Both the position numbers and the translations under genes were made by a program. Below, one piece after another: positions 1 through 37,484 of a DNA stretch of 64,000 nt (positions within the stretch are counted from its first letter, which is position 1; the number at the start of each line of letters is the position of its first letter). The notes beneath the pieces were generated by a model. It was not told where the DNA came from. It worked only from the letters and a program-made list of their open reading frames with translations, and did not search any database. The stretch is from Branchiostoma floridae (taxonomy: Eukaryota > Chordata > Leptocardii > Amphioxiformes > Branchiostomatidae): positions 9,277,805 to 9,341,804 of the forward strand of contig NC_049984.1 of the NCBI RefSeq assembly GCF_000003815.2, read 5' to 3'.

Positions 1-2456
1 TCCTCATCTACCTCTTGGAATGAACTGAAGTATAAATACATGATGCCTGCATTCAAGGCAACAAACCTGAAAGAGTCCATACAACCATTAGGGGTTACAT
101 GAATCAGACTGTTCTCTGAAATACCAAGAACTAGCTAAAAAAAAAAGATAAATGAAAGAGTTTAAGAATCATCTACCTAAGTTGAATAATGACAGCAGAG
201 GTCTGATGCGGTTCTCCAAACTGGTACTCAATGAAATTAGACAGAGGCTACATGACACTGTCAATGATCTAGGGCCAAATTTCAAGATTGCCAGATAATC
301 AAACAAATTTTTCTCTGAAAATGTAAACCGAAAGTCTTAATAAGGTTACTCAAATCCAACAGTATACTACTAGTACTAGCATGACAATGCATAGTCTCTA
401 CTACTAGTAGGCTACATAGCTTGCTGGAAAAATAGTACAAATTGGCCAAATCATCATCATCATCATCAATTGGCCAAATATTCTTTAATAACACGTCAGA
501 GGAGTTTGCCTGACATAGGAATTCATTTTGCAACATTGGTATTATTTAATCTATTTGACCAATCTCTCCTACTTTTCCAGCAATTTATAGAGTTTGGTAA
601 AGTTGAAACAATACTGGTACTTACAAAGCTAATCCTATAAAGCCTTTCAGCGGTATCAGTCCCCATATACAGCCTGCTATGAGTGCAATGACTTGCCTGT
701 ACCAATAGATCACATCCAAGAACTCATCCTGTAGAAAAACAAAGGAAATCAAAATAATATGTACATGTAACAGTAATATGAGCGATCGCCGTTGTTGTTT
801 ATATCAGGGGCATTCGACGGCTGGTGCTTACCAGTATGTCCGTAGATCGGATTAAAAATTGATATTCAAATTAGGAGATCAAATTACTGGTTAACATGCA
901 AATCAATCACCTGCATTATGCCTACCACTGCGTCACCGTGACACAGGCTTTTAGCTAGGCATGCGTCAACGCGTCATTTAGACGCACTGTCCTAACAAAC
1001 ATAAGAAATCGGACGCAATACTTTTAAGCAAGACGCACTACGGACGCCCAAATTTTTCCTCCCAGCCTCAGTCAGGGCAAACATATTATAACAGAAACAA
1101 AAAAATCTTGGCTGAATTCTACAAAATATGCACCTCAAAATGCAGGAAATAGCATTTCAGAGGGTTATGATTTCAAAATTTTCCGGGGGAGGATACCCCC
1201 GGACCCCCTACAATGCTCGCGCCGCAGATCACTCCGATTACTTTGGACGCCCTAAAATTAGTTCCTAGCTAAAAGCCTGCCGTGACATCATCGCGATCGC
1301 TCGTATATCAAATCCTGTAATTTACCAGTCAAAGGTATAATCACAAATAGCTACAGTAGTTACTCTCCAAGCAGAGGTTAGTCTCCGGCTGTTTTTTTAA
1401 CGTCTTTTTTTGTCATTTTTATGGGCTTTCTATTTTTTATTTTATCTTGCTGTGTCAAAACTAAAACCTGTTTGGCTTGCGTACTTCAAGAAAAATGACA
1501 AAATAGAAAGCCCGATAAAAACGACTAAAAAAAACGTTAAAAAAAACAGCCGGAGCCTAACCTCTGCATGGAGAGTATACAGTAGTCTGATCCTGTCAAA
1601 CACCATTTTGAACAAACAGAACTCCCGTACAATTTTTAACACCTTCGTCAAAAACAGCACTAGTGGGGAAAAAATGGCTGCCGCTGTTATGTAGAATAAT
1701 TAAAAAGACTGACTTTGGTTTATCTTGGGGGCCCTTAAAGTTAAACCCTTTCAGCACGGACCGAAGAAAACGCCCTGTAAGAAAGGTAAATCAAAGACAA
1801 TCCGTATACTAGTGATTACAAACTTAGCGGTGGCAGCCATTTTCTTCTAATTTTCTAAACAGGCTATTGACTATCGACAATCTATCAGGCTATCGAAAAA
1901 TACAGCATTGTAGTGTTGTATAATTTGTGTAGAAGTACTGGTTATTCTTATTCTAGTAGTAGTCCTTGGAAAGGTTGGATATTATGTTCATTTTCTTTTA
2001 AATTATGACACTAAACTCTAGTGAACGTTGGAGCAAAACTTCAGCTTCTTATGGTATACTGCTATGACGACTATCCGAATGCATAACATACTAGTAACTA
2101 GTATTTTTAGTATCAGAAAAAGACATGGAGCTCATGTATTATCAATAGGTTACCCAATACAGATAGGATTTGGGAGGAAAACGTTACAAATGGACAACAA
2201 AATGGTCATGGGTTGAACCAAAATTATGACCCCATAGAACAGCGGACAGAGTCGATCATGATTCATCTACACAGAACGACTTGGAACGCCTGACACATGT
2301 GGCGATGAAACATCAGAAAATTTATCTCCCACACATGGGCACCAAACTCACTTTATCAGGCCACTCTGAAGACGCTTTGAAAGCCCTTGTCCACACGCTG
2401 GGTAGTGCTCCATTGGCAGTATCATCTCCATCCTTCTTTCTCCTTCTCGTCGTCAT
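1..2456 (-). CDS. RAB5IF: RAB5IF (C20orf24/RCAF1) orthologue, 3' end outside window
   Basis: Coding segments on the minus strand are 2456-2352, 728-625 and 66-1 (continues off the left edge). Exon 1 encodes 35 residues from an ATG with a basic start (MTTRRRKKDG), then ANGALPSVWTRAF, and ends after an AAA codon at donor GTGAGT. Exon 2 starts DEFLDVIYWYRQ and holds a hydrophobic segment ending LIPLKGFIGLA. Exon 3 contains NAGIMYLYFSSFQEVDEE. Phases agree (0, then 2). The order and the words DEFLDVIYW, NAG and YLYFS match human RAB5IF, a small multi-span membrane protein described as a Rab5 interactor, an ER multipass-translocon partner and a respiratory-chain assembly factor. The last exon or exons lie outside the window. 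Intron 1 (1.6 kb) holds a MITE. The gene is head to head with the SAM/protease gene. Identification is firm; the function is taken from the family. Confidence 0.9.
729..2351 (-). other. RAB5IF intron 1
   Basis: This 1.6-kb intron contains one clear insertion (the 217-bp MITE at 1361-1577). I see no other coding signal. The short open frames in it, such as 1410-1694, are the arms of that MITE read through. Confidence 0.7.
1361..1577. mobile_element. Mutator-like MITE, intact copy with 9-bp TSD
   Basis: Terminal inverted repeats start TACTCTCCAAGCAGAGGTTA and the arms continue inward through CTCCGGCTGTTTTTTTAACG and its complement. The element is flanked by a perfect 9-bp direct repeat, TACAGTAGT, at 1352-1360 and 1578-1586. 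Nine-base duplications are typical of Mutator-like elements. It has no coding capacity. Related ends occur at 7580-7599, 10178-10321 and 40799-40930. Confidence 0.85.
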
Positions 2457-3044: not shown

Positions 3045-6000
3045 ATGGAAGAAAATAAGCCTATTCTAGATTTCCTGCAGCCGTTGGGACTGGAGACGTA
3101 CGTGGGAGATTTCAGAACAAGGGGTTTTACCGAAGACCCCGATTTTCAGGGTTTAACACAGGACGACCTGGATAGTATGAACATCACAGATGAAGAACAC
3201 AGGGACAGAATAGTAGCAGCAGGTGAGACCTCCATATCCTTTACTAGAAAGTACATTTCTTTCACACCATTAAACGATGTCTTCAATATTGCAACATGTT
3301 GTAATTTGTGATAGCATTCAGTATTAAATACCAGGGGCTTTCTGTCAAAACATACCTGGGAGTAGTAGTTCTGTTGTTTTGGTTTCACTCCAGCTGTTAT
3401 AAGAGTTAGTACAACGCTCATACTCTTGCAGAATGATGTTCAGCAAAATACCTGATAGATGTGAAGTAAAATGGTGCAAACTTGGACCGGTAGTTAAAGA
3501 AAGTTTCCCAATATCTCATGTAAACATTTTCACACCTACGGAGTCAGGCTGCAGGCCTGTCAGGCTCGGAAGCTAATCAAATACGTCATCGCCACAGCCA
3601 CTCTCCTGCTGCACACAGCGTGAGTCATTCGCTGACTAATGCTCCTGCATCTGACAAAGAGCTCCAATAAAACGAATAAACCAGGAATCCCTAGGCGCAC
3701 GACACAGTATGAGAGAAATCCGTAGTAATTGACACATGTACGTCAATGACACAATATTCAATTTTTGTGTGGGTGTGTGCAAAGATTTGATGGGAGTTTT
3801 ATGTACACTTTTTGTGTATTCACTGCAACACCGTTTACCGATTAAACGTGATCGACCATATTTTGATATACACTGGTGATAAACTTAATAACCTTGAATT
3901 GTTTCACCCGGCCCCTCCATTACTTGGCAATTTTTTGCATCCTTAGACTTAACAAGAGAAAGTTTGACCTAGGCTAGATTGTGTGTTTTCCCCACCAGCC
4001 GCTGTTCATGAAGTATCGGAAGAACACCAAGTCCTGCAGTTCTTACGTGAACATGGACTGGAGTATTATTTTACTAATTTCCTGGCCAGTGAGTACACTG
4101 ACTTGGAAGCCATCGAAAGGATGGACACTGGACCAGCAACTTTCGACGACCTGGAGATTACCCTACCATCGCACAAGAACCGGCTCACGAAAGCAGGTAT
4201 GTATCAAAGTTCCATATTCCAACATATCTTCGATATTGTGCTTTCTTCTGATGTTTTATGTTAAGATTGTTATGAAGAAATAGGGAAGTGACCAGAACTG
4301 TTCCGTTGAAACAAAGAGATTCGGGGATTTTTCGTGACGTATGTGTTGCTATTTTAGGCAGAGCGCTACTCGAATGTGTGTTTGGCGCGCTTTTTGGTGC
4401 ATCATGGTATAGCTTCTCGGGCAACGCCCATTGTTTGTCGCGGTGTACGTTTGTGCTACAAGACGTCTGTGTGCCAAGTGCAGGCACGGGCGAAATACTC
4501 TGACTTTCTTGAAATAATAGGTATCTAAATTCAGTTCAAATACTCATCATGCAGCAATCCAGATATCCGTCAGTTTTCTTTCAAAGTCTATTGCGAAAGG
4601 CTGTGAGCCTGAGATATACTAAGGGACACCGATGCACAGAGAAGTTCCTCGCTCCCAGCAGTGTGACTTTCCCCTTCGTAAATGATAGTAAAAAGATTAT
4701 GACAAATACATCTTTTATCAAATAAACATATGAACGCTTACAGAGTCGATCCACTTTCGAGCATTTGTGCCTGCATAAATAACTTCGTTATGTTATCTAA
4801 CAAAGAATCTACACGGCACCTTACAGTCCTGAGACGCCGATGTGTCTACTTTAAGTGAGTACACTTTTGCTTAGCGTCTTTGCCGACAATTATATTTCAT
4901 TAGTGGATTCCTAACACCAGAATCATGGTCGGAATGACTTGTTTCCCTTCCAGATTACCCTGTCAGCTGTTTCCTTCCGTTTTCTCTAAATTTAGGAGAG
5001 CGCACGACTCCCCTAGTCAAGCGGGCCTTTGTCTTGGGAGCACGCCAAAAGCGAATTATTAATCTGGCATTATTTACTCAAGTTCTCGTCGCTTCCTGTC
5101 CCACCATCCTATTTGAGACACAAAAGGAAAACGTTTTGCTTAGGAACCGCCAACACGACACACTATCCCCTGTTCTTGCAGGTGTAGACCACCTATACAG
5201 ATAACACATCACTCCAGCATACGAAATGTTCAAAAACTTTTCAGAGATATTTCAAACTTTTCGGGGACATGACTGTAAGATAAGGTTTCGAAGTGAGCTA
5301 ATGTCTTAGGATACTAGTACATAGTGTGCTCTACATTTGAGAGAAAAATAGATATACTGATGAGTCATGGTATCAGACCATTCTACAACAAAGAAATATC
5401 CAACACAAAGTGGACTTCATTAGTTTGTCCACATCATAGTAATCGAAATATCGACATGGTAGATATGATATCAGCATCACAATTTTTAATATGTAAGCCA
5501 GAGGTGATAAAAGTAAAACGATAAACATAATGTCAATAATAAAGGTATCTACATTGTAACACGTGAGAGTGACTATACTGAAATTCTTGCGTCGGCTATG
5601 GCTATCAATTATGAGAGAGACAGAGTTTGGTATGGGACGCATATTGTTGGGTGGAAAACGGTTATTTTCCTGTGACATCTTATCCTGAACACATGGTATC
5701 CTGTCGGCAAATCAACCGCAATGTCTTGTAAGATAATTAAACGATAACTGGTGGATTTTTACTCCATGACGTGACATAGCTGCATGCTATATGTTGTGGA
5801 ATGGGTGCAGGTGCAGGGCGGCTAATGGGACCACACACTCGCGGGCACCAAGTACGGGGTCCTCGGGGAACAACCGCCTTTAGCCGCACGGGCGAGCTTC
5901 CTGGTGGCGGGCCTTGTCAGGAAAAGGCCAGCGATCAAAAATCCTTCCTATTTACACACAAACTGCGGAATTATGTCTGGGAACCAGCACTGTACAAGAG

Positions 6001-9000
6001 ACATGCTGGAAGATCATTGAAATTGTGTTTAATATTGAAGTAAGATTTCAAACAAAGAAAGTTTCCTCATTATTCGATGTTGCTGTCTGCGATTCAATGA
6101 GAGGTCAAGTGACCGTGCGGCTGTTGTGTTGGGTCAACCTTGAATAAGAAACATTGTTTGTACAAAGTGACAGACATGACAGAGGGCGGCAGAAAAAGAC
6201 GGCAAGATATCTTGAGTGCTGTACAAATCATTTTGCGATAATCATAAGTTACGAGCTACTAGTACATAGCTTTCCGATGCTTTTTTTTCGATTGAAGGTT
6301 TATCACGATGTTCACAACAGAATTGTAGCATAGGGTCCATTCATTGTCTTCAAGGATGATTTAACTGAATATATAGAAAGTGAAGAATAATCGATAATGC
6401 ACAATTGCGTATTGTTTGTAATGTCATGAATTTCCAACAAAAGTTCTACAATATTTTCCTTAATTGGTGACAGTATAGTTCTTAATTCTTCATTCATATT
6501 GCCACCCCAAGTCTATGGCTCTCGGTGCTTAAGTATAAATCAACCCCTCGATACACAATACTAACTATATATTTTCCTTTCCTACTGTTTCAGTTAACAA
6601 ACTAAGAAAACGCCAGCGGGTCAGCTTCGTGGAGACGGAGGCAGAGACGGCTATCGCGTATGGCTACTGGAGCCGGCCCGCGGCGTTAGAGGGCGCCATC
6701 TGCGACTTTCTGTGCGTCAAGGCCACCATCAAGTCACCCGATCCGAACGGACAGAGTGTGGAGAGAGGTAAAGATTAATTAGCTATATTACACAGAACTA
6801 AATATTTCACTAGAACATGTGTAACTCATGGAAGTAATCTTAATTAAAACCGACATCAAACAATCTACATGTATGTTCGTCATTGAGCTCTCCATAAATA
6901 TTATAGCACGCAGGTCTTTGCGAACTTTGTGCTAGGACTATTGAAAGAGCATTGGGCGATGTATCACACTCAACTGCTGACGTTCTGGGCTTTTAATACA
7001 CTTGCTCGGAGTCCCTGGGAGAAGTTACTATAAACTGGTCCCAGGGAGTGTTCTGTGCCCACCTGGCCGGAGCCAAAAAACACCCACTCCCGCCCATCAG
7101 ATCGCCTTACGCTTTCACAAGCGAGAAAAATGCGCTCGTCAGAACTTCACAGCAAAACGCTTGACTTTGATTCATCGCCAAAGTCCCATCGGCAACATCT
7201 GTGAAAGTAAGAAATCAGCGGAGGTCAGCCACTTGGCAGGAAAGGCCAGGTCTCGGAAATGAACCCAGATTGGCTCGAGCTCAGCCTGAAAACATTTTTA
7301 CGGTGTCAATCATTTCTAATTCGGGCATTCTCTACAGTTTCTGTGCAATAGGCTGTATCTTTAGTGCGAACCTGAATAGTTATCGTCTACTATCCCAGCC
7401 AAGTACCGCGATAATCCGAAAACATACAGGATAACCGCGAGTTTGATAACATGCGCTGTCATTGCGGTGCGGTCAAAAATGTAGCAAAGCTTGAGAAAAT
7501 GGGGATATCCCAGCACTGAGACCTACTCTAATAGGAGCGCCGGTGTAATTTTTCCGACTACTACTATATCTACGCGACTCAACCTCTGCTTGGAGGGTAT
7601 ACTTTTTAGCAGCCTCTTTGTGCAGACAAATTTTCAAGGGAAATGCGTGGTGGCAATAGCCATGGTATACAATTCGGATAGTAGTTTGCTCCTATGCAGA
7701 GAAGCGACTGTATATAGTGTATAATAAACGTCGGTGCGAACTACTATCCGGATGGTACTTAGGCTATGGTGGCAACTCTCGGATATCTGCAATTTTTCAC
7801 CACCACGCTAACATGGGAGGGACTAGAGATAGAGCTAATAGGATCTGACAGTTTTCTAGGTGGTCTGACAGGGACTTGTATTCCAAAATGCCGATTGAGG
7901 AACTTCCTTTCGTAAACAACAGCATAGGGTTAGGTCGAAATTAAATCAGTACTGCACACAGAACGTACAATTATCAGAGTGATTCACAGGAAGAGAGTTG
8001 CAGCTGTGATGAAGGATAATGACTCTAATCAGTGTTCTATAGTGAGATGTCCCACCAGACAAACCTACAGGCGCACCATATGTCCACAGAACCACCTGTT
8101 CAATCGTTTGGTACGATGTAGTCGTACATGGCGTGATGTTGGTGTTGTTGGAAAACTTCCCATGATCAATTTATCAAAGTTCAACTCAAAAAAACGAGAT
8201 AATAAAGACACTGACATAACCTATCCGTTCTACTTGACTGGAATCAATTTCAATTAATTGCAGGGGACATCCTAAACCGTTACTAATCCTCTCCCCAGGT
8301 TTGCCAACAAAGAGGCACCTATTATCGCTTTCTGGGTGATTGTCGTTGGTAATTTCCTCGGCTATTCGTCTTCACTCTTCCCTACTAGAGCTATCATCAA
8401 GGCGTTTAACGCATCTGTAAACGATTAGGATCGCTAGACCTGGTAGCCTGGCCCTTGACCTCAAACGGTTGAATCCTATCACCTGTAGGGTATCCTGAAG
8501 TCTTGTCTTAATCAATTATCACCTCACAGAAGTAATGGTCAGTTTTACTTGCAAGCTCAGTCAGCATTAGCAGGAACAATTTTTTTCGGTAAAATACATC
8601 ATATTTTTACTGATCTGAAAACATGTAAAGGCGTAGCACGGTAGACATATGATATTAGCTTTTAAATGTAAGATATGAGATTGAATGGTTCTCACTTGTT
8701 GAGGTGAACTTTGTTGGGGTCCCCGTATTTCAGTCTAACGCGCGTTTTGTATGGTCAGATTCTGAAATTGTTTGTCTGTGTGTAATCTTAAATGTCGTTA
8801 ATTCCTGTACCCGGGTAATAATACGTTTCACTGCCCACTATTTGTACACCTGGTACTGCTACAGTTGTACAGTCCCTATCCGGCGTCCCCCGGAAACAGG
8901 TGCGACCACAATTCGTACAACAGCCACCAGAAGCTTACAAACGCATATTCCGGTTACCGGTGATGTTATCATTAGAATTACCTTCTTTGGTACCGAGTTG

Positions 9001-10921
9001 ACTTTACAATGTTTAGAGATCGGTCACATCTGTCTCGCAACATCCAAGCGTGTCCCTGCTGCATGGCAACTTGCAAAATTCCTTAACGGCGATTGTCCTT
9101 ATCAAGGCAATACGTACGATCAAAGGCGTACGAATGAGATACGAGGAAAGCTTTGAAGTACTAGTTACAACCTCTGAGAAGTGGTTAAAGATTCGGCCGC
9201 CGCTGTGAGCCATTGCTTGTATGTTGGGTTACCACCACTATGGACACAGCCCAGAAGTTCCAGTCAACAACTTAATCCTCTTAATCCACTTAACTTGATG
9301 ATTAAACTGTCGTTATGCTTTACCCTATTTTACATAGAACTTGATAAGGCTACATGGCCCAGCGGGGTTCCTTTACAACTGATAGTTTCACAGTACGGCT
9401 TTTCACAACTTCCAATTATGTGACGATGATGTCATGATGTGTTTTAATTAGATTACATCATACCAGTCAACGCTGCAACTAAAGTCGTAGTTTCTAGGAA
9501 ATTGCCGTGGATGGGATAATGGCAGACAGAAATGAGAAATTGACAATGCCACGCTGTTCTTTTGAAATTGAAGGGCCACATCAAAGTTTTGAAGCTATAT
9601 TCTAAAGCTACAAAAAAGTATAAATACCTTTTGTAACTACTCTGTACTTCTGACACTAGTGTATTCAAATAAAATGTTTAGCAAGTGAAGGCTCTGGAGG
9701 CTAACAGAAATGTCTTTTCACAGAATTCTTGGTGGATTCGGGCAGTGACGTGGTCACGATCAAGTCGGAAATCCTCGACCAGCTGAAGCTGCCCAAGAAG
9801 GGAGACCCTGTCCAGAGCAAAGGTGTCCATGCTACAGTCAAGAAACAGCTCCACAGTGGCATCATGGTCATCGGGTCGGAGGAGATACATGTGGAGGTGA
9901 GGACGTTTGATTGCTACAGAAATATTAGTTGAAGAGAACGAAAGCAACACTGATGATATCATTCCACTCCCAATTAGTCACTTGTTATCCTCGCTAGCTT
10001 ACCATAGCCTGGGGCATTATTCGTCTTTCCCTTTCGCTTCCTCACAACGGATAGAGAGAGCTTGTGGTAATTATGGAGGATGGGAACCAGGCTACAATTG
10101 GGAGGTGTCTAAGGCACGCGTATTTCAAACACCCCACAAACCCTTCGTAAAAGGAGTTATACAACATCATATATAGTTACTCTCCAAGCAGAGGTTAGGC
10201 TCNNNNNNNNNNNNNNNNNNNNNNNNNNNNNNNNNNNNNNNNNNNNNNNNNNNNNNNNNNNNNNNNNNNNNNNNNNNNNNNNNNNNNNNNNNNNNNNNNN
10301 NNAACCTCTGCTTGGAAAGTAATATATAGTAACCTCTAGACAAGGTAAACGACATGTAGTGTAGAGAAGATTTATCCTTGTCATAGTGTCTCCTACAATT
10401 TTCCCCACGACAGCGACCAAGTTATCAATTTAGCGCTATAAGAAATAACATAAGAAAAATACTGAGATTGTTTACTTTACGAACCTTAACTCTAGGTAGG
10501 CAAGATTTTAATCTTTTTACAACGGCACACTTGTGCCACTGTACCTAATGCGTTTGTCATCTATCCCACCTACTAACACCACCCTACAGTCCAACTAGAG
10601 GTATATAGACAAACTCAACCCCGAGGTAAGTGAAATGAAAGGCCGTAAATGAGAAGATCTTGTTCCCAGGTGATGGAAGAAAGCTTCAACTCCATTGGCT
10701 GCCGAGAGCTGAGAAAGTTCAGACACTACATTTCCCCAGAGAGGCACATCTGGATGAAGCGCACGGACTCCGACACGTCCAGCTCCACCATTCGAACGGA
10801 GGAGCCGCCGGTCTGGGAGATCCAGACCCCCGAAGGAACGGAAACTGAGACCGAAGAAGACACTGGGACAGAGAACGGACAGACCACAGAGTCGTCTGAT
10901 TCGGACGAGCACGAGAGCTGA
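3045..10921 (+). CDS. Two-SAM, retropepsin-like aspartic protease-fold protein (isoform A)
   Basis: Coding exons are 3045-3222, 3999-4196, 6594-6767, 9724-9896 and 10670-10921, giving 324 aa. Phases (1,1,1,0) agree at every junction. The ATG at 3045 is the first in-frame methionine. Exons 1 and 2 each encode a SAM domain (about residues 4-59 and 65-125: PILDFLQPLGLETYVGDF; LQFLREHGLEYYFTNFLAS), built of matching words such as DLD/DLE and the closing RI/RL. Exon 3 (126-183) begins basic, KLRKRQR. Exon 4 holds FLVDSGSDVV (D188-S191), the D-[ST]-G-[AS] motif of retropepsin-like proteases, and a flap-like stretch. Exon 5 supplies SIGCREL, equivalent to the second hydrophobic-Gly motif of that fold, then an acidic Ser/Thr/Glu tail. 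SAM domains usually mediate protein association; proteolysis is not shown. I do not recognise a named orthologue. Splicing is supported, function is inferred. Confidence 0.8.
3223..9723 (+). other. Introns 1-3 of the SAM/protease gene
   Basis: The three introns (776, 2397 and 2956 bases) between coding exons hold no recognisable further exon. The only repeat I can name is a solo MITE end near 7580-7599. An open frame of 150 codons at 8704-9156 starts with GTG, matches no family I know, and has no supporting splice context. Confidence 0.5.
7580..7599. repeat. Solo end of the TACTCTCC MITE family
   Basis: The sequence CAACCTCTGCTTGGAGGGTA matches the right end of the MITE at 1361-1577. I found no partner end nearby and no duplication, so this is a fragment. 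Confidence 0.5.
10178..10321. mobile_element. Mutator-like MITE interrupted by an assembly gap
   Basis: The left end TACTCTCCAAGCAGAGGTTA and the right end AACCTCTGCTTGGAAAGTA belong to the same family as 1361-1577. They are flanked by a perfect 9-bp direct repeat ATATATAGT (10169-10177 and 10322-10330). The 100-N gap at 10203-10302 falls inside the element, consistent with failure to assemble a long hairpin. The true element length is unknown. Confidence 0.85.
10203..10302. other. Assembly gap (100 N)
   Basis: A run of 100 N in intron 4 of the SAM/protease gene, wholly inside a MITE. No exon is expected to be lost here, because exon 4 and both last exons join in phase. Confidence 0.99.
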
Positions 10922-12079
10922 GACACGAAAACGGAAATATCTGTTTAAATTTGTGAACTGCGTTCAAGCTCTTGTTTTAGATCTACTCTCAGCAGCTTCC
11001 CTTTCCCTTTGTTCGTGTTGAAGTTCATGCAAGTTTATTGTTGGCTTTATTCAATGATGAGATTTGTAGTACATCAAGCTTTTATAAAGCTTGTTTTAAT
11101 ATTTCTAGAGGGATCAAATGGGCGGAAAGTTCTTGTTACATTCTGAATGTCATTGTATATACGTTGTGTGAATCTTGAAACTTGTGCCAAATCTTAACTC
11201 TCCGCCCATTTCATTCTATTTTTGTACGGGTAACGTCATGTCATGTTTATACGTCTTCCTCTTTTCTGAAACATCCACAAAACTAGGCAACTATGGGAAG
11301 AAACCATCTTCGTAATTACCCTGCTTACATGTACAACTGTTAACCACCAAACGTTATGTCTATATTTATAAACATCTCACTTTATTATTGTCGGTTAAAG
11401 AAACTGTCTGTTTCTCTTAAGACCGATTACTAGACTTTAAACAACCATTTGTGAAAGGAATATCCCCAGTGGAGGGTGACCTGTCGGTGTCCGAATGACC
11501 TCTCTGTCTGCACCTGCACGGTTGTGTGGGAAACAGGGCCGTGCTGATAGGTCAATTCGTCATGGCAGGTTAGCCATGTCAGCACCCCCTCCCTCCAGGG
11601 AAGGCTCACAGATTAACCTGCCCCGGGGAGGGAGATATAAACCCTTTGGACTGACAACTTTGTCAAGAGGGGTCAGTGTGGTAGCTTGTGGACATGTGAG
11701 AAGACTGGTCAAGTGTGTGAACAGACCTGATTCACTCGTCTTTTGCCCGCCAAAAAACTCGACTCCAAACCACGGGACATCGCCACTGAAAACACTACTT
11801 GTGTTTTGGACTTGCAATTTGTGACAACTCGTTCTAATGCAAACATGACGATTAACAGCAAAATTGTTCTAAAGACTAAGGGGGCTTAGGTTGATTTTAC
11901 CACAATCAATTGATCATCAACATATAGACATCTTATCCCCTGACTGTTGCTGTTATCAATCGAAAGGTCACCACAACCCTCAAGTTCAACACGCAGACAC
12001 ACAAGAAAACAGTAGTACCATCAAGTTGTACTACAAGACTAGTTATTGTACTCTGTCACTCTTGCTATTCGTTCCTCAG

Positions 12080-12274
12080 GTTATTTCACATGACGGGATA
12101 GAGTCTATTGGCTGTGTGGTGATGCAAAAGTTTCGTCATTTCATAACGCCAGACCTTCACATCTGGCTGGGGCCCGTACGGCGCAGTGCACAGTCGCCGG
12201 GCAGAGGGGCGACCGCGACCCGAGGATTACGTGAGGAGACTCCGGTGGCGGGCCCTTCTACGAGCTATGGATAA
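12080..12274 (+). CDS. Alternative last exon of the SAM/protease gene (isoform B)
   Basis: After acceptor TTCCTCAG this exon reads VISHDGIESIGC and continues with KFRHFITPDLHIWL before a stop at 12272-12274. It is homologous to the isoform A last exon, which carries SIGC, KFRHYISP and HIWM at the same spacing. Both start with a GT-initial valine codon in phase 0, so either can be joined to exon 4 (ending 9896). Isoform B would be 305 aa and has a shorter tail (Arg/Pro/Ser-rich, not acidic). An AATAAA lies at 13393-13398, about 1.1 kb downstream; I found no AATAAA between the two exons. Mutually exclusive use is an inference from the phases and the two stops. Confidence 0.7.
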   Translation, partial: VISHDGIESIGCVVMQKFRHFITPDLHIWLGPVRRSAQSPGRGATATRGLREETPVAGPSTSYG

Positions 12275-14375
12275 GGGAACAAACTGGAAACATTCCATTT
12301 TTACACTATAGCATAAAATGTACTTTTTACAGCTATTTTAGATATCCGAAGTCTTTTGATATCTTCGAAACCAATGTACTACTTCAGATAAGGTCTTACT
12401 AGCGACCAGTAGCAGCAAACCTTTTGTGGAAAATCACGTTCCAGGGACCACTATCTCGAACGCTAGATCGCTAAGATAACCATGTAATGTTATAATTGTA
12501 CGTCTACTGTATGATTTGTGCTGTGTGGGTGTCAATCAATGATCCAAACATCCGGAAAACAGGATATAGCTTACCACCTGCAAATGTAATGTTTGCTCCA
12601 GATAAAGCATCAATTTGAGCAAGTGATTGAAAACCTACTCCCAATTCAATATTTCTTCCGGAGGGACATCTTGATAAAACACGAACATTTGTGTGGTATG
12701 GAAACAGTTAAACAAAAGGGCCTCAGTATTTCTGCACGATGCTATGAAGTGGCCGGAGAAGCTATGTCCGGTTTTCTTCGGTAGGTTGTGTTTGTATGTA
12801 ACAAGTTGTGAAGTAAACGTAATTGAGTCTTGTGTCAGTGTAGTGTATGATGACACTGTGCGTCTTTTACGGTTATTACGAAGAAAATACAAACTGAAGT
12901 TAACAGCAAAATGCCAAGCTTGTGCTCACCGTATCACGTATATCGAATGATCGGTAACATTTTCAATCCAAATATTTGCAGATTTTATAAGTAAGCGCCC
13001 AGAATGATCGAAGGTGTCTGACCAATGACCACTATATGTCGATAAGTATGCTTGTATGTATGGCATGTGATTTTGCATAGTTTACAAAACTAGTTGTAGT
13101 AAGCCAGTATTTTAATGTATTTTGACACTGCTGCAGGCGGCAGAACGTTGTAGAAGCAGAAGTTTGTTGAAGGTTACCATGTAGTCCAGACGCCTCGAAA
13201 TCTTGTTCTATTGTTCACTAGAACTTTTATCAATTGTTAGTAGTGTTAGTACTTTAGTGTGTATTTTTGTGCTAAGAAAAGCGTGTGTTTTGATCCGATT
13301 TGGTCTTGATTTTCTCGTGCATGTCTGTTTGTAAGTTTTATTGCAAGAAAACGTTATGTAGGTCAACTCATGTTAAGATTATTTGATTGGAAAATAAAAT
13401 TGTGTTACGAAAAGTTAGCCAACAGCCTGTGCAACTGTGTTTATTTCAACAAACCTTCTAAATAATCCAAATAACGGTTCTGGTATTTTACAACTAATAA
13501 AACACAAAATTTGCAAGGTTAGAACACGCCGAATCTCACGTTTCCCGCCTAATGAGAATTGTCATGCAGAAATTTAATTTTTGTCTGCGTAGAAAAAATG
13601 GCAAAGACTGGGCTAGAAATATATGATATTACATCTATACTAACCAACGTTTGGATGTAACGTTACCTTTCAGTTCACTTTATTGTCGATATTATGACTT
13701 AGGTCTCCACCTGCCTAGAACTTTCACCTGTTCAAAAACGCACATCAATTGAGATACGTTCACCAGACTGATGGAATATGATGTGTTTTACACCGAACGA
13801 AGGATTAACTGAAGTTTTCAACTTTCAACTAGTACAAATGCGGGAGGCCCATATGATACAATAGCTTCCAAAATTACAGGTTTTCGTGAATAGAGCAGAG
13901 TAGAGTAGACTATTAGTGCAGAGTAGATCCGGCAGTGCGGACCTCTCACCATGAACACATGTAACATGATTTATTGCAGATGATTTACGGCAGTGCGAAG
14001 TGGTATTTAGATTCAGCTGACGGCCGCTTGCAGCACACACCCGCCAGACTGTACGTGCCATGTCAAATGGATAGAAAGATAGGCATCTCTGGAACTATAG
14101 CCAGGCATTTAGTATGCTTTGTATGGGCGTATGCACCTGTCATCTGCACCTCGATAGCATCCAAACAATAGCCCCTAAATCATTAAATCTGTCCCATTTT
14201 GATAGTATGTCAACGTATCAAGTACAACAATATTGAGGGATGACAACACAGTCGTTTATATGAGTGTTAATTGGCCAAAATGCGTTAGGAAAAGCACGTG
14301 GTGATTCCATATGTTTTGTTGCCATCACTTCCGGGTTCCTGAAAAGGTCGGAGGTCGACTTGCACATGTCCGAAA
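12275..14375. other. 3' flank of the SAM/protease gene and IPO4 upstream region
   Basis: This holds the probable isoform B 3' UTR up to the AATAAA at 13393-13398, then unassigned sequence. Just upstream of the IPO4 start lie an E-box CACGTG at 14295-14300 and an ETS-type site CACTTCCGGG at 14327-14336, a common arrangement close to the transcription start of TATA-less genes. I see no gene here. Confidence 0.5.
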
Positions 14376-17300
14376 ATGGCGCAATCTCTGGAGACGATCT
14401 TGGAGAACTTGCTGGTCCCAGACAACGCTGTCATACAGCAGGTAGGTGTGTTAGGTGTGCACAACTCGTCATCGTGCAGTACCTCACACTGTGTGTTAAC
14501 GATAAAGTCAGATCTATGGGACTTCCCTCCGAAAGTTGCTTGAGTTGTGTGGGGATGGGGAGGGGCGGAGTGAAGGAATGTCGCCGTGTTGGAACATTTT
14601 CCCGCCCCAGGCAGCTATGAACTTGACCCATGGCCTGGCTGGCGTGATCGAGACTTATTGATCTTCAATACATACATGTCTCAATTTTCAACATCTCAAT
14701 GTTGTCCACAAAAGTATAAGATGTTCACCAATTCGAATTGGTGAAAAAATCTGGGGCCCGGATAACAACATTCCCTTGGGCATTTGAGTACTTTAGCTCT
14801 AGATCTAAGTAAAAAAAAAAGCCTAACTTCCTCCACAGTTGTCATGCCTATTGTACCTTAGAACAAGGAGGTTATATAACCTCCTTGCTTAGAACTAGAG
14901 CAATGACTTCCCAATGTAAAGTTAACGTTACTCATCTGTAATACAGATACACATCTGCACTTCTTGAATGAATTACATCCTCAGATTCCCTAGTGAGTTG
15001 ATTGTCTTTGATATCACTATGTGGGCGTGTCTATGGTCCTATGGACTGATGACTCAATGACACACATTGCATGGTAAATTAACCCCCTGCCTCTCTAGAC
15101 ATATTTATAAACACAAATTTGTAACCTTAGTCATCTTGAATTATGTACTGGGGTAGTAATTATTATGTAAGTTATATGAGGTATGATGATTCACAGCTAC
15201 ATCATATAGAAATGATAATCTAGAATTATGTTGTACCTGGGACACCATAACATTTGATGCAGGTGTTTGATGCAGGTGATACCCTGCCACATCACATCAG
15301 TTCTACTTCTATCACACAAGTTTCCTTAGAATAAAAAACGTACTCCATACGCTTGAGTGCGGTGTAGTCGGAAATTTGCATATTGGATTTTGACTTCGAA
15401 ATTGCTGTAGTTTGAAGACAACAAATTTTCTGAGGCATTTCGCATTGAAACGTGTGTTTTCTCGGGAGGGTATGACACAATTTCACAAATGGATAACGAC
15501 ATGTTCAGCCTTCGACCGTCAGGCGATCCTATCGGCAGTCTGACTGTTGCCTTGGGTGATACGGAATACACTGTGTTGTATTCTATTTTGTATGTACACT
15601 GATCCAATGTGTGACACAGTCCTCAGATCCAACAGATCATACATACCCACTGTGCCATGTTGTAACTCCCAGGCCACCACCCAGCTGCAGGAAGCCTACA
15701 AGGACCCTGCCATCGTCCCCGCCCTGTGTGGGGTACTCGGGGCCTCACAGAACCCACAGGTAAACACAGAGCTGAGATGAACTGGACAAACAATTGTCTT
15801 TTGGTTTTTATGTTATGTTTTGGGGGTATAGTTTTGTATCTGCCATGCCTTTTCTTTGTTGATGTCTTTTATTTTTGGCCATGGATAAAGAAAGATTGCA
15901 AAAAAGTAAAGAAATTGGTTACCTGTGCAACGACACAATACAATTGTATTTTTTTTGTACATAAAAGAATATGGCCCCAATATTGTAAATGTGTTTTACC
16001 GTCGTAGTGAGAGAGAAAGGGACGTTTTTGTGATGTTTGAAGTTCACGACTGAAGGCATTCTGTAATACAGTAGAAGTACAAAACACAAATTACACTATG
16101 TTGTGATCTCATGATAAAAGGCCTCAAAATATCTACTTCTGATTCAGATGATTTCACTGATCAGCTACATTCTATTTAAAATCTGATCAGTGAGAAAATT
16201 ACCAGAAAAGGTATCCTGGACTAAACTTGGGAGATTTGATTTTGTTTACCTCAGGTTCGTCAGTATGCAGCTGTGCTACTGAGGAGGAAGATTGCCAAGC
16301 AATGGAAGAAGTTTGATCAGGAAACTCAGGCCAGGTAAACATGTCTCCTCAAAATAACCAAGTAGTATGTAGTACTACATTTTGTTACTGCATGTGTGGA
16401 GTAATTCAATATAGAGACGATTTGATTTACTGTCATGTTTAGTGTTAGAAAGGAAGATTTGTTGTATTTCATTCCTTGTTTTATTTCCTTTAAAGGTCTT
16501 TAATATATTAATGTTGGTGTATCACCATTATATCTGCTGATCTGGGAATATTTCTTGTTAATGTATAGCCTAATGTACTTTTGATGAGTCAGAGATGTAG
16601 ACTTAATCGAAATAGTGTCACTTTGTATCATGACTCAGGATGATTTTAAGCCATTTATTATTTCTTCGCAGCCTGAAAGCTACACTTCTGCAGGTTTTGG
16701 TACAGGAGCCAGAGTGAGTCATTATTTGTTATCTATCCTGTTTCCTTCTCATTGTCACAAATGTACCTTTCAAATGACAGTAAATGTATTGAAAATGCGT
16801 TTAAGTTCGTGTGGATTTAAATTCACGGTAGCGGGAAAATGGAGTGTTCGCTGTGTAGCACCATCCCGTGAATTTATTGTATTGTCTTGGAACACCAGGC
16901 GCCTCTACGAACCGCCAGTCCGAAACCGCTTACTGTCACTACAGTGGTTGTTCACCCTTTGCTTGAAGGTTTGATGGTACAGTCCATAAATGTAACTAAT
17001 TCCAGCTCCCTGTTCATGAGAACTGATATCATTACCCCTGTTCTGTAGGCGGACAGTGCGACATGCGGCAGCTCAGATAGTTGGAGCCGTGGCCAGGCAT
17101 GAACTGCAGGAAGGCAAGTGGCCAGAACTGCTGCAGTTTATACAGGACCTCATCAGGGATAATGAGCCTAGCAAGAGAGAGGTGAGGATGATTCATAAAA
17201 CCAGCCTAGATAAATTGCTGTTGGCTTCCCGCATTGGAATTGTAACACTATTAATAGTAAGTATATACCATACCACAGGTAGTGTTTGGATTTGAAATGA

Positions 17301-20300
17301 ACCTTGTGAAATTGTATTGCAAGATATAATACATAGACACTACAGTGCTGGTATACCTAAAAATTATATCAGTAAAACGAAAGTGTACACTAGATGAAGA
17401 AGAACTATAATGGGAGTCATTTTATTTGTACCATAGTAACAATATCTTAATTTTCTTGGAGACAATTGCTGTGCCTATCACTGCTCTGTTTTACAGTTCC
17501 ACAGAATGTACAGGATTGTTCTACTACATTTTCAGATGGGGATGTTTGTCCTGAGCACAGTTTGTGACACATCAGCACAAGGACTGCAGCCCCACTTTGC
17601 CTCCCTGTTTGCTCTGTTTAACACAACATTGGAAGATGTGGACAACCGTGCAGTACCGTTTTACACCATACAAGCCATGACATCCCTGGTGGAGTACTGT
17701 GGTACTGAGGAGGCTGTGAGTATACACATGAAGTGGTAGTAGATTGCCTGTGCAACAATGCCCTCTAGAATGGCAGAAGCAGTGTGTATATGTAATATTA
17801 ATACATTTTGTGTTAGACTATAATGCTATGGTTATTCTATTCTGAGAAAACTGATATACAAATCAACATGTTACACCAGATACTATGAGTTTGCATTCTG
17901 TTTTTAGATATGTTCTCAGAACAACCTTTTGCTTTGCAGGGAACATTCCAGAAGCTGATTCCCAAGGTGTTGGCAGTGATACGACACCTCCTCCTGCAGG
18001 ATGAGGTATCATGTCTTACTTCTTACCGCAGTTCCTTCTGTAAACTCTGTATTTCTGAAATGAACTGAAGTATCTTAAATTGTGTCCATGGCTTTAGCAT
18101 AAGTTGTCTCCATGTCTTGAGCAAGATTCTATCCATTGCAAAAATTTTTGGTTATGAATTTTTGATCTTAATGGGATGTACATCTTGACTGGCAGGTAAA
18201 CTTCAATGAGGAATCAGCAGTCCACAGGTAATGATAACAATACCTTTGTTTTGTTTCTGGCAGGACCAAGCATGCGAAGCCCTGGAAATATTTGATGAAC
18301 TGGTAGAATGTGAGGTTACGATTGTGGTGCCACATCTGAAGGATATCATGCAGTTTTGTCTTGAGGTACATGAATATAACAGTTATGATGAAGTATTAGA
18401 GCCTAGAATATGTAATAAATGACTTTCTTATGAATTATCATTTTATGACTGCATTTTAAAACATTTTTTTAGATATTTAGCAATATGTAAGTTTTAGAAG
18501 TATAGTAGATGCAAAGGATTGAAATGGAATATGACTCATTATAGATAATCCCGTTTGCAGGTGTCAAGTAATGCTGAGCTGGGTGACAACATCAGGGTGA
18601 AGGCACTGTCCTTCGTCAGCTGGCTCACGAGGCTCAAGAAAAAGGTACCAAACTGGTCTCCATAGTAACAGTTTTAGAATCAGGACAAAACTCACAATAA
18701 TAACTGAAAGCCAACAGTTCTACACTATACTGCTAAGCTGTTCACAGACATTCTGTGCTGTCAGCTCTAGAACTAACTAGAAAAAGGAAAAGCTGTACAA
18801 ATGCTAGAAAGGCAACATTTTCTCGCAAATGCAGAATGCTTTTTCCGTTTTAGTATTGTGTGTGAATAAAAAAAATACATCTGCTTGATGTTTTTACCAG
18901 GTCCTTAACATACTTATACTATACTATTAGGCTCACCTACAGTATTATGTGCAAGTAAACAAAAATGCTCATATTTCCAATAACAGCTAATATCTAATCT
19001 AAGCTCTGATTGGATACAGGCAGAAGAAGAAGAAAGAAAGTAACAAAACGCACCAGCAAAAAACAGTATATTTTGCCCTACTAATAATTGTCTCCTGCAT
19101 CCAGCTTGTCCTTTCCTTTGTTACATTCTTCATAGTTATGGATAGTGGGATCACAGTGTTTTTCTCCCCTCTATGACCAGTCCATCCTGAAGCACAAGCT
19201 GGTGGAACCGGTGCTGAGTGTGGTGTTCCCCATCATGTGCACACCTGCTGCAGAGGGGGAGGACGACCCAGACGACACCTTCATCGACGAGTTAGAGGCC
19301 AGCACACCATCGTCATTTGCATCACAGGTGATGTCACAGATAATTCACCAGCTCTTCTTTGTACATTCTATACACAGTAGCTTTATTATGTAATGCCTCT
19401 CTATACTGTTGATTATAGTTGCCCTTAACCCTAGTCCTGCTGAGAATTTTTTTTTGCCAATTTAACTCACTTAAGCTGGTTTATTGATCAGATCATTAAA
19501 ACTTGACCTATTCTGTGCTGCTGCTGCAGATTTACCTCCCCAATCGATGCGGTTTCCTGAGGTATGCCAAACCCATAAAGATACTGGACCCACATAAAGG
19601 CATTATATACAAAATGTACGTGCAACCTGTACACATAGAGGCTCAGCAGGACAAGGCTGTTCAGGGCTCGAAATACTGGGTGCATGTGCACCCAGGTGCA
19701 CCCAAAATTGGAGCTGTGCACCCAATTATTTTCTGTGGGTGCACAGGGTGCACCCAAATATTTTCTTACGTCTATGTATGTAAAGATATCAAAGTATACT
19801 AAGTAATACTATACATCATATTCTTGACATCTAAGTGTTAGAAAGGTAAAAAAAGTCTGTCATGGTACTTGTTTAAGAATTTGATAGCTTGTAACAAAGT
19901 TTTATTATTAGGTTATTAGTTAAATATAAGTGGTGCACCCAAAAATTTTTTGGTGCACCCAAATTTTTAAGCTGGGTGCACCAGTGCACCTAATACCCAA
20001 AATGAATTTCGAGCCCTGCTGTTTAATCAAGTTGTGATGAATAGACTTGTTACTTGTTTGGCATGAAGTCAAACCACTCTCATGTAAGATGTACACATAC
20101 ATGTATATAGTTGTTCTGCATAGCCTAGTGTTGGTGTGTTAAAGGCAACCTAAGCAATATCACATTGTTAAAAGTGGAAATATTCTGAATAAGGCAGTCT
20201 GTATAATATTGACATCTGATGCACTATTTTAGCACATTTACATCATTATTTCATAAATTGATCCGTTAAAAACAGCGCGGGAATGAGTTGCACAAGGATT

Positions 20301-23300
20301 CCAGATCAAGTCCTTATTTTTGGGGGGTACAATAATAAGGAATATCCTCGTGCAACTTGTCTCTGGGTTGTTTTTAACCGCTCAGAGTATCAAATTATGA
20401 TGTAAATGTAAGAATACAGTGCAGTAGATGTCAATATCATGCAGATTGCCTTATTCAGAATATTTCCACTTTGACGCTGTAATATTGCTTAGGTTGCCTT
20501 TAACTGTTATCTATTCTGCAGGTCATCGATGTCATGGCACTCAATCTTCCTCCTGAGAAGCTCATCACTCCACTGGTACCCTTTCATTTCCCTCCTATAG
20601 ATAAATTCAATTACATTCTAGGAGAAGATGTATCTTATTGTATACGCTAGATAGGTAAATGCATCAAAGACTGCTTAGACCTTAGAACAGTATTGTAAAT
20701 GATAGGTTAAATTCAACATGCTGATTTATTCATATATTGCTACTGGTACTCAGGGTTATTGACCTGTATCCACTTGCTTGTATGTATACTAGTAGAAGAC
20801 CTTATGAAAGTCCCTGTACTTTTGATGTCTCAATAAAGATTGCTGTTGTATTAGGACATTAGATTGTTAATAAAAAGTCTACATGGAATCATGAAATATT
20901 GAAAAAAGGTCTAAATGATTTGAGAGACTTTCCAGACATGCATTTCATTGTAAAAGTAATAAGACAGGCTGTATTTTCTTTTCCCAGATGCAGCTGGTGG
21001 GCCCAGCCCTGGAGAGTGAGAACCCGTACCAGAGGAAGGCTGGACTCATCTCTATGGCAGTTATAGCAGAGGGCTGCTCAGATCACATCCAGAAGAAGTA
21101 AGAATTTAGATACAGGGCAAATCTCAAATGACTGAAGCAAAGAAATTTTCATTTAACAGGGCTCGAAATACCACCTGCATATGCAGGTTAGTGCAGGTAA
21201 AAATGGAGCTGTGCAGGTATTTCTGGTGTCTACCTGCACTTAACCTGCACTGGTCCATGTACTGGGTTGTATACATAAATGTCCCAGGTGCATGTGGACT
21301 GTTCTTAACTGCATTGACTGTTACCACCTATAAAGTATAAAAGAAAAAAATAGCAATGGTTCTTGAACAATAGTATGATCCATACTTCCAAAATTCAGAG
21401 TGGTGCAGGTAAAATGGTGCAGGTAATTTTCAATGTTACCTGCACCAGTGCAGGTATGCAGAAAAAAGTATTTCAATGCCCTGATTTATTAACATGATAA
21501 TGATATGAGCTTGAAGATTTATACATATATTTGCATTCCATTGTATTTGTTTCAGGTGTCTAGAACCCTTTCTTCAAGTCACCTGCAAAAGTAAGTGTGT
21601 GCTTTTGTGGTTGAAGACATGCAAAACTCTTGATGTTTTCAATAGTCTACAGTTGTTTTGAGGTTATCTACATGTTACTCAATAGAAATCTGTTGGTGAT
21701 CCAGTGCTTGACTTCTGTGCTGTTACAGATATCTCTGATCCAAACCCCATCATCAGGAACGCTGCCCTGTTCACCATGGGCCAGTTCTCAGAACACCTAC
21801 AGGTACATTTGTATGTTGGGGCTTATTCTTTTGTTACCTGTAAAGCAGTCATAGAAGCTTGCAATATAGATGAAACTACACCTTGGAAGGTGCTGATAGG
21901 TTGTTACTGGCAGGAGACAAACATTAGGTATAAATTTCAATATATTTAGTTTGTATAGTGTAACATCACTGGTAGTGTGAAGGAGTAACCTGGGGTTGAT
22001 TAATCAAAGACTTGAAATGGGAGAGATGTTTTGTGAAAATTTATTTGAAAAAGACCAGAAGAATGCCATGTGAGTTTCTGTCATGCTGAATGTATTATTT
22101 GAAAAGTAGCATCAGTATCATAATTCCATTGGGTATCCTAAAACCAGCACATAAATATAAAATGTCATTATCAAGGCCTTCTCAAGAATGTCCTTAACAC
22201 CTCCATGTCTGAAGTGTGCATACCTGAAGGATTCATCAGTAGATCTCTTTGACTTTCCCTTTCTTTCATGTGGCAGTCCAAGAGTACCTGGCAAAATTAT
22301 CAGACTTACTGGTAGTGTTACAATGTATGTTGTTAAGTGAACACTGAGGTTGTGGAGAAGAAAGCAAGAAATCTGTTGGATTTTTTACAGCCTGGAATCA
22401 CAAAGTACCATGGAGACATTGTTCCTCTCCTGATCAACCACCTGATGCAGGGAGAACACAGCAGTAAGGAAGGCATCACAAAAACGTACTACGCACTGGA
22501 GGAGTTTGTGGAAAATCTAGGTGGGTGCTCTTCTTTTCACCATCAAGCGGCCGCCTGAAAGTTCTGTTGGTAATTTGCTCAGGATTTTACATTACTTAAT
22601 TCTGTTCACTGACTGAGGAATTACAGAAAATATAGAAAAAATGAAGATATGGAAAAAAATCTAGGAAGTAGCATCTTACTCTTGATCTTCTGTCTTCTGC
22701 CATGCTTCCTCCAACTACAAAATAATGTACTTGCAGAAGCATAATGCTTCATATCAATCAAGGATGAAAAAAGGAAAAAAACTATTTTCCAATGTTTGTG
22801 TCTTTACTTAACATTTTATTTTGACATGTCATGATATTTCCTGATGACATGTACATGTAGATGACCCAAGTTAAAGGAATACTTCATCCCAATGACAGTA
22901 CCACCCTGTATGTTGTCCATGTAGGTAAGGATATCCTGCCATACCTGCCTGCACTCATGGAGAGTCTTCTGTCAGCTCTGACCACCAGCCAGGCTGTGCA
23001 CATCAAGGAGCTGGCCATCAGTGCTATTGGGGCCATAGGTAGGAGTCAAACTGAGTAAAACTCCCCATAGAAATACTTCTGTAAAACAGTTAGATGTATT
23101 TTCAGCAGAGGTTGGGGTCTAGCTCAATCATTCAGCCTTGGCCAGACTTCTGTCACAGACTTCTGTCACAGAGCAGTTGTAGACAGACATGATAGATAGT
23201 GAATTGTCACACCAAGACAAGGTAGTATTGACTTGGCTTGACATGGAATGAAAAATACTGATTTTTGGCGATGCCTCAGAGGCTAGGTGGTATTGACTTG

Positions 23301-37427: not shown

Positions 37428-37446
37428 CGTCATTTTCGCGGGAAAA
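37425..37446 (+). promoter_or_regulatory. CRE plus E2F-like sites upstream of WRNIP1
   Basis: TGACGTCA (37425-37432) directly abuts TTTTCGCGGGAAAA (37433-37446), a symmetrical E2F-type site, 39 bases before the WRNIP1 ATG. E2F control would fit a replication-stress gene. Binding is an inference. Confidence 0.6.
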
Positions 37447-37484
37447 GTGGGCGGATTCAAGTCTTCAGTTTAAAACTTGTCAAG

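Follow-up and report, generated by a model that had tools for sequence, protein, structure and literature searches.

A two-SAM, retropepsin-like gene of amphioxus with a tandemly duplicated last exon

Introduction

Retropepsins bring one Asp per chain and need to dimerize for activity, and how cells hold such dimeric proteases inactive until they are needed is, to our knowledge, largely open. Formation of the retropepsin dimer is ascribed to the active-site "fireman's grip," the flap, a C-terminal helix, and a platform of strands; in DDI, this platform is built from the C-terminal strands only, without contribution from the flaps (PMC7072860). ASPRV1 harbors a DSGA motif and a platform of six non-alternating strands; it self-cleaves, and substitutions at R311, a residue of the last strand, alter its activity, with R311C raising self-cleavage and R311P lowering cleavage in trans (PMC11402058). 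PEG10, another DSG protease, self-cleaves, and the substrate tested was not cut in trans (PMC7212762). Here, we describe a gene of the amphioxus Branchiostoma floridae that encodes two SAM domains followed by a retropepsin-like domain and carries two candidate last exons. It lies on the plus strand of a 64,000-nucleotide stretch of DNA (C6:9277805-9341804, hereafter the window), and we put at roughly 0.55 the probability that it encodes a host retropepsin gathered by its SAM domains, with two interchangeable last exons for the dimer interface.

The SAM-protease gene resembles DDI1 and DDI2 in the plan of a multidomain host protein with a retropepsin-type domain; in DDI, C-terminal strands hold the dimer (PMC7072860). 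It differs from them in that the DDI partner domains are ubiquitin-like (UBL) and, in yeast, ubiquitin-associated (UBA) rather than SAM (PMC5028754), and in that DDI gives a strong PF09668 match and has other intron positions. With ASPRV1, it shares the features of a host retropepsin with a DSG motif and a C-terminal protease domain, for which ASPRV1 has the dimer platform of non-alternating strands; ASPRV1 has DSGA where this gene has DSGS, and no SAM domains are described for it in the available text, the two being set apart by description and not by sequence (PMC11402058). PEG10 and the proteases of long terminal repeat (LTR) retroelements have the DSG active site, with self-cleavage in PEG10 (PMC7212762), but come in a gag-pol context with long frames; the SAM-protease gene is split by introns, encodes SAM domains, and is listed in the genome without a second copy.

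A 2009 survey recognized, among eukaryotes, three single-domain host protease families that belong to this clan (SASPase, DDI, and NIX-1), and the terms "sterile alpha" and "Branchiostoma" are absent from its text (PMC2642776). No description of a SAM domain joined to a retropepsin was found in the titles and abstracts of the literature searched, from which subscription journals were mostly outside; "SAM domain" occurs beside "retroviral protease" or "aspartyl protease" in PMC11599104 and PMC6411480, both known from the term match alone.

Gene model and SAM domains

The five exons between positions 3045 and 10921 of the window all have GT-AG borders, and splicing them yields a single open frame of 324 codons followed by TGA. 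In the 324-residue conceptual protein, D188 lies within FLVDSGSDVV, and an SIGC motif starts at residue 249. The elements of the gene are as follows.

3045-3222, plus strand: exon 1, carrying the start codon and encoding the first SAM domain (residues ~7-59); phase-1 donor; PF07647 at 4.6e-8 on the exon alone.
3999-4196, plus strand: exon 2, SAM domain 2 (residues ~69-124); symmetrical phase 1-1; PF00536 at 2.9e-7 on the exon alone.
6594-6767, plus strand: exon 3, a basic linker and the predicted first strand or strands of the protease; phase 1-1; the TIGR03698 match starts inside it, at residue 170.
9724-9896, plus strand: exon 4, FLVDSGSDVV (D188) of the predicted active-site loop and a flap-like region; phase 1 in, phase 0 out; PF13650 match over residues 177-225.
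10670-10921, plus strand: exon 5a, the SIGC motif, a putative C-terminal helix and final strand, an acidic tail (pI ~4), and the stop; the TIGR03698 match runs to residue 263.
12080-12274, plus strand: exon 5b, a tandem-duplicated candidate alternative last exon (SIGC...KFRH...HIW) with a basic tail (pI ~11) and the stop.
13393-13398, plus strand: the sole AATAAA/ATTAAA signal in 10901-13500, past both last exons; a consensus match only.

In five of the six exons, exon 5b counted in, stops are scarcer in the coding frame than in either alternative frame; in exons 5a and 5b, the terminal stop is the only one in the frame used, and exon 2 contains a second open frame. The G+C content is 0.529 in exons and 0.414 in introns. 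An earlier note on this DNA, made from the letters alone, had placed a five-exon gene at 3045-12274. Its five-exon coding sequence is borne out, and all exons lie inside its span, but position 12274 closes a further, candidate alternative last exon, the product of a duplication that the note did not describe, exon 5 itself ending at 10921. The note had also read phase-1 introns between domains as the mark of an exon-shuffled gene. Introns 1 to 3 are indeed in phase 1 and intron 4 is in phase 0; domain borders coincide with introns 1 and 2 only, introns 3 and 4 interrupting the protease domain. Exon shuffling thus fits the second SAM domain, a single exon between two phase-1 introns, and does not fit the protease domain, which has one phase-1 and one phase-0 intron inside it.

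The two SAM domains are unambiguous, as the note had claimed. A Pfam-A hmmscan of the spliced protein returns SAM_1 (PF00536) at 1.9e-15 over two stretches, with 57.4 bits against a cut-off of 23, and SAM_2 at 1.3e-14. Because exon 1 alone (6.2e-7) and exon 2 alone (2.9e-7) each pass the SAM cut-offs, each SAM domain corresponds to a single exon. The SAM pairs of Caskin polymerize. The top two PDB sequence matches of the protein are the SASH1 SAM domain (3.4e-4) and the tandem SAM domains of Caskin-1 (PDB 3sen, 5.3e-4), both of which are aligned by phmmer with residues 6-138; the matched Caskin-1 chain has paired SAM domains as here, but lacks a protease domain. The gene, its SAM domains, and the exon duplication are well supported, and the locus very likely represents a genuine host gene whose architecture is unusual.

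The duplicated last exon

Exon 5b encodes VISHDGIESIGCVVMQKFRHFITPDLHIWL plus a tail and is read in phase 0, as is exon 5a (VMEESFNSIGCRELRKFRHYISPERHIWM). It lies 1.2 kb downstream of exon 5a on the same strand, with its own acceptor and a matching phase. BLASTP aligns the two over 29 residues with 13 identities, and within a 22-codon core, 22 of 66 bases differ and 13 of 22 residues are identical. Frame-blind simulations matched for the numbers of changes and transitions (20,000 starting from each exon) retained a mean of 8.4 residues compared with the 13 observed; at least 13 residues were kept in 0.00375 of the runs started from 5a and 0.00415 of those from 5b, and the observed BLOSUM score was reached in 5e-5 and 0 of the runs, respectively, probabilities that are optimistic because the core was chosen as the 22 best-matching codons.

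Six-frame searches of the genome (513,431,437 bases in 431 contigs) were made with isoform A, which ends in exon 5a, and isoform B, which ends in exon 5b. Seven places are listed for isoform A: the five exons of the query itself, exon 5b at E 0.019, and one place on C17 at E 0.0055. For isoform B, five are listed: the three of its exons that the query contained, exon 5a at E 0.0075, and, at E 4.5, a match on C9 that is due to chance. Neither search lists a second copy of the gene among the places at E ≤10 in the 513 Mb.

Several observations tell against a selected pair of exons. Besides the chosen core, the codons ahead of it and the tails are dissimilar between 5a and 5b; the differences at the three codon positions number 7, 5, and 10, with no clear third-position excess; and the C17 place, an unrelated match to the SAM part that contains a stop, outscores exon 5b. 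It is the location 1.2 kb past exon 5a, the strand, the acceptor, and the phase that distinguish exon 5b, and the genome-wide E value alone does not. Taking the simulations together with these points, both exons have probably been under protein-level selection over some or all of the period since the duplication, the test being silent on when selection acted.

The tails have diverged to isoelectric points of 4.05 in exon 5a (acidic) and 11.42 in exon 5b (basic). Their acceptors also differ, with a good pyrimidine tract in 5b (0.81) and a weak one in 5a (0.50). Since this weak tract is joined by a lone AATAAA past exon 5b, exon 5a is perhaps a minor or unused form, which counts against the use of both exons; weaker variants of the poly(A) signal are present before 13393. 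These features bear on another account in which exon 5b is an unused relic and there is one protein ending in exon 5a or, conversely, only exon 5b is used and exon 5a is the relic. The weaker acceptor of 5a and the absence of AATAAA or ATTAAA ahead of 5b are what such an account would lead one to expect, but a relic would drift, and both exons are open, share their phase, and have kept core residues beyond the frame-blind expectation. We consider a relic rather doubtful on this balance.

The protease domain

The earlier note had recognized the order of a retropepsin in FLVDSGSDVV, a flap-like region, and SIGC, and profile searches uphold it with weak but consistent matches to clan AA. The domain taken with exon 5a (residues 127-277) matches Asp_protease_2 (PF13650) at 5.8e-5, with 24.2 bits against a cut-off of 24.3, and with exon 5b at 4.9e-5 and 24.4 bits, marginally above that cut-off. 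Matches to gag-asp_proteas (PF13975) follow at 2.2e-4 (22.2 bits) with 5a and 1.8e-4 (22.4 bits) with 5b, for a cut-off of 28.2. In a second profile library, the sole match is clan_AA_DTGF (TIGR03698), at 3.2e-4 (21.0 bits, profile positions 5-102 of 107) with 5a and 2.4e-5 (24.6 bits, positions 5-88) with 5b. The TIGR03698 match spans residues 170-263 and that of PF13650 residues 177-225; given the profile coverage of TIGR03698 with exon 5a, the flap and SIGC region lie within the match. The D-S/T-G catalytic motif is intact as D188-S189-G190, inside the profile-matched stretch. An exact reverse of the domain, which by chance retains VDSGSDV, gave zero matches in both libraries.

The case for a retropepsin has weak points. 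The PF13650 score of the domain is at, and not clearly past, the curated cut-off, and the full-length proteins fall below it (23.1 bits for isoform A and 23.3 for isoform B); the TIGR03698 scores are far under the curated cut-off of 57.35. Among the PF13975 matches listed genome-wide, exon 4 alone ranks 98th of 99 (E 0.36), and it is absent from the 35 genome-wide PF13650 matches at E ≤0.01. A PDB sequence search with the protease domain returned no match. The motifs themselves deviate as well, with DSGS in place of the usual DSGA and, in both last exons, S-I-G-C, which provides one hydrophobic residue where hydrophobic-hydrophobic-Gly is usual. Further searches add little: a PDB search with a two-row profile of the domain found only Cgi121 (E 0.73-0.77), a chance match, a search of viral contigs gave no match, and a structure prediction of exon 4 alone is uninformative (mean predicted local distance difference test, pLDDT, 58.3). 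On the profile evidence, assignment of the domain to clan AA is likely, not proven, and a retropepsin fold is likewise probable.

The same weak scores, together with the departures from DSGA and from hydrophobic-hydrophobic-Gly, would suit a noncatalytic scaffold, in which a retropepsin-type domain has been kept for dimerization or peptide binding on top of the SAM association and cuts nothing. D188-S189-G190 is intact, however, and the DSG proteases ASPRV1 and PEG10 do self-cleave in the accounts available (PMC11402058, PMC7212762). A scaffold of this kind strikes us as somewhat unlikely, and catalysis by the domain is predicted from its motif.

A proposed mechanism

If the gene encodes a SAM-gathered host retropepsin, association between SAM domains would assemble the protein chains, and the two N-terminal SAM domains would raise the local concentration of the protease halves and favor their pairing. 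Two such halves, each with one DSG and one catalytic Asp per chain, would then form the active dimer, so that activation would be SAM-driven. The pre-mRNA would end in either exon 5a or exon 5b. Exon 5 encodes SIGC together with the putative C-terminal helix and last strands; in proteases of the DDI and ASPRV1 type, these parts make up the dimer platform, and the choice of exon should therefore set the strength of the dimer or its partner (5a-5a, 5b-5b, or mixed). We infer by homology that exon 5 codes the dimer interface, provided that the domain is built like its relatives; a swap of 5a for 5b would in that case be a swap of interface that leaves the catalytic loop and flap unchanged, with the choice also adding an acidic (5a) or a basic (5b) tail.

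A stricter form of this proposal, in which the dimer interface is chosen by splicing and an active protease arises solely from matching (or solely from mixed) chains brought together in a SAM polymer, is speculative, and we regard it as unlikely. Caspase and SARM1 assemblies are proximity-activated, and a splice-coded, proximity-activated protease would be nearer to them in its logic than to the retropepsins in the literature examined. If true, a two-SAM retropepsin with exchangeable interface exons would make the control of dimeric proteases directly testable, through SAM association, the dimer choice set by splicing, and a single catalytic Asp. Duplicated, probably selected last exons that would code an interface may weigh more than the SAM idea, and relatives of the gene are expected in other invertebrates.

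Comparison with DDI

By eye, the SAM-protease gene and the frames of amphioxus DDI can be aligned along the succession D-S/T-G, K-G-V flap, I/L-G, helix, and final strand, as would be expected if a DDI1/2 paralogue (or one of NRIP or ASPRV1) had diverged and gained SAM domains. Comparison of the sequences did not bring the two together. The hand-joined domain of amphioxus DDI (C14) matches PF09668 at 3e-48, whereas no PF09668 match is listed for either isoform of the SAM-protease, HMMER filters discarding most matches above ~0.1, and a search of the genome with this profile at E ≤1 gave none for the gene either. The pairwise score with amphioxus DDI is not significant, being reached by 61 of 500 shuffles with exon 5a and 191 of 500 with exon 5b, and counts against the clan AA assignment. 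The intron positions differ: judged by eye, the DDI intron falls directly after VDSG, and the SAM-protease gene is split immediately ahead of FLVDSG and again behind HVEV. For the two full-length isoforms, the listed Pfam matches comprise SAM-type and protease families only, with no ubiquitin-like or UBA partner. We reject membership in DDI1/2 on the absence of a listed PF09668 match, set against the DDI control, and on the lack of UBL and UBA domains among the listed Pfam matches, and we hold a SAM-bearing paralogue of these families to be improbable.

The amphioxus DDI gene itself contains a tandem repeat of 107-118 bases in up to 2.8 copies (L012:3838-4148). The repeat includes copies of an exon end, MLLGLDMLRRHQ, together with the start of the next intron, and this exon end therefore occurs more than once.

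Genomic context and the retroelement question

The clan to which the domain is assigned also contains the retroelement proteases, and the domain could in principle be a piece of an LTR retroelement of this genome that was captured recently. In the amphioxus genome, 99 PF13975 matches are listed, of which 91 sit in open frames of at least 300 residues, as expected of retroelements; the lists of PF13975 and SAM matches come from an exon-by-exon search and are lower bounds. The PF13975 match of the SAM-protease gene, in contrast, lies in a 75-residue frame flanked by introns, and in place of the repeated copies and long gag-pol frame of an LTR retroelement, we find five short exons and four introns, with no second copy listed. 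None of the retroelement frames among the top candidates that were scored is listed as matching the domain at E ≤10, and in pairwise comparison with exon 5a included, the scores of retroelement protease pieces were reached by 26 (L008), 218 (L009), and 232 (L010) of 500 shuffles, L009 and L010 being identical. A recent capture is thus very improbable, and the note's view that the gene is not a recent retroelement stands. A further piece (L011), whose score was beaten by 12 of 500 shuffles, was discarded from this comparison as a nonprotease frame, probably on the wrong strand.

Protease matches in short frames were also considered as possible host genes; among them, L012 looks like DDI, and L013 and L014 look like retroelement pieces. 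When the listed matches (58 SAM, 99 PF13975) are paired by distance, just two pairs come within 7 kb, both of them from the SAM-protease gene. A pair on C16 lies 8.9 kb apart on one strand, with a weak SAM match (E 0.041) at 14913480 and a PF13975 match in a 1065-residue frame at 14922388; it is probably a retroelement beside a SAM exon and is read as chance, as is another such pair 51 kb apart.

To the left of the gene, an exon on the minus strand of the window (624-803) matches the EMC6 family (PF07019, 1.2e-7) and reads away from the gene; we take this exon to be RAB5IF-like. To its right, importin-like exons lie on the plus strand at ~14370-29070 (PF25780 on 17056-17181). Presumably, a WRNIP1-like gene is also among the plus-strand exons on this side (~14370-29070 and 37428-38126), Pfam giving no match for the window frames 28567-29067 and 37428-38123.

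The window further contains a 20-base motif, ACTCTCCAAGCAGAGGTTAG, in inverted pairs (with up to three mismatches) at 1362-1381/1557-1576, 10179-10198/10301-10320, and 40800-40819/40910-40929, and as a lone copy at 7579-7598. The pairs span 130-215 bases each, and shuffles yield none. From their arrangement, they look like a small family of terminal-inverted-repeat elements resembling miniature inverted-repeat transposable elements, with one member within intron 4 of the SAM-protease gene.

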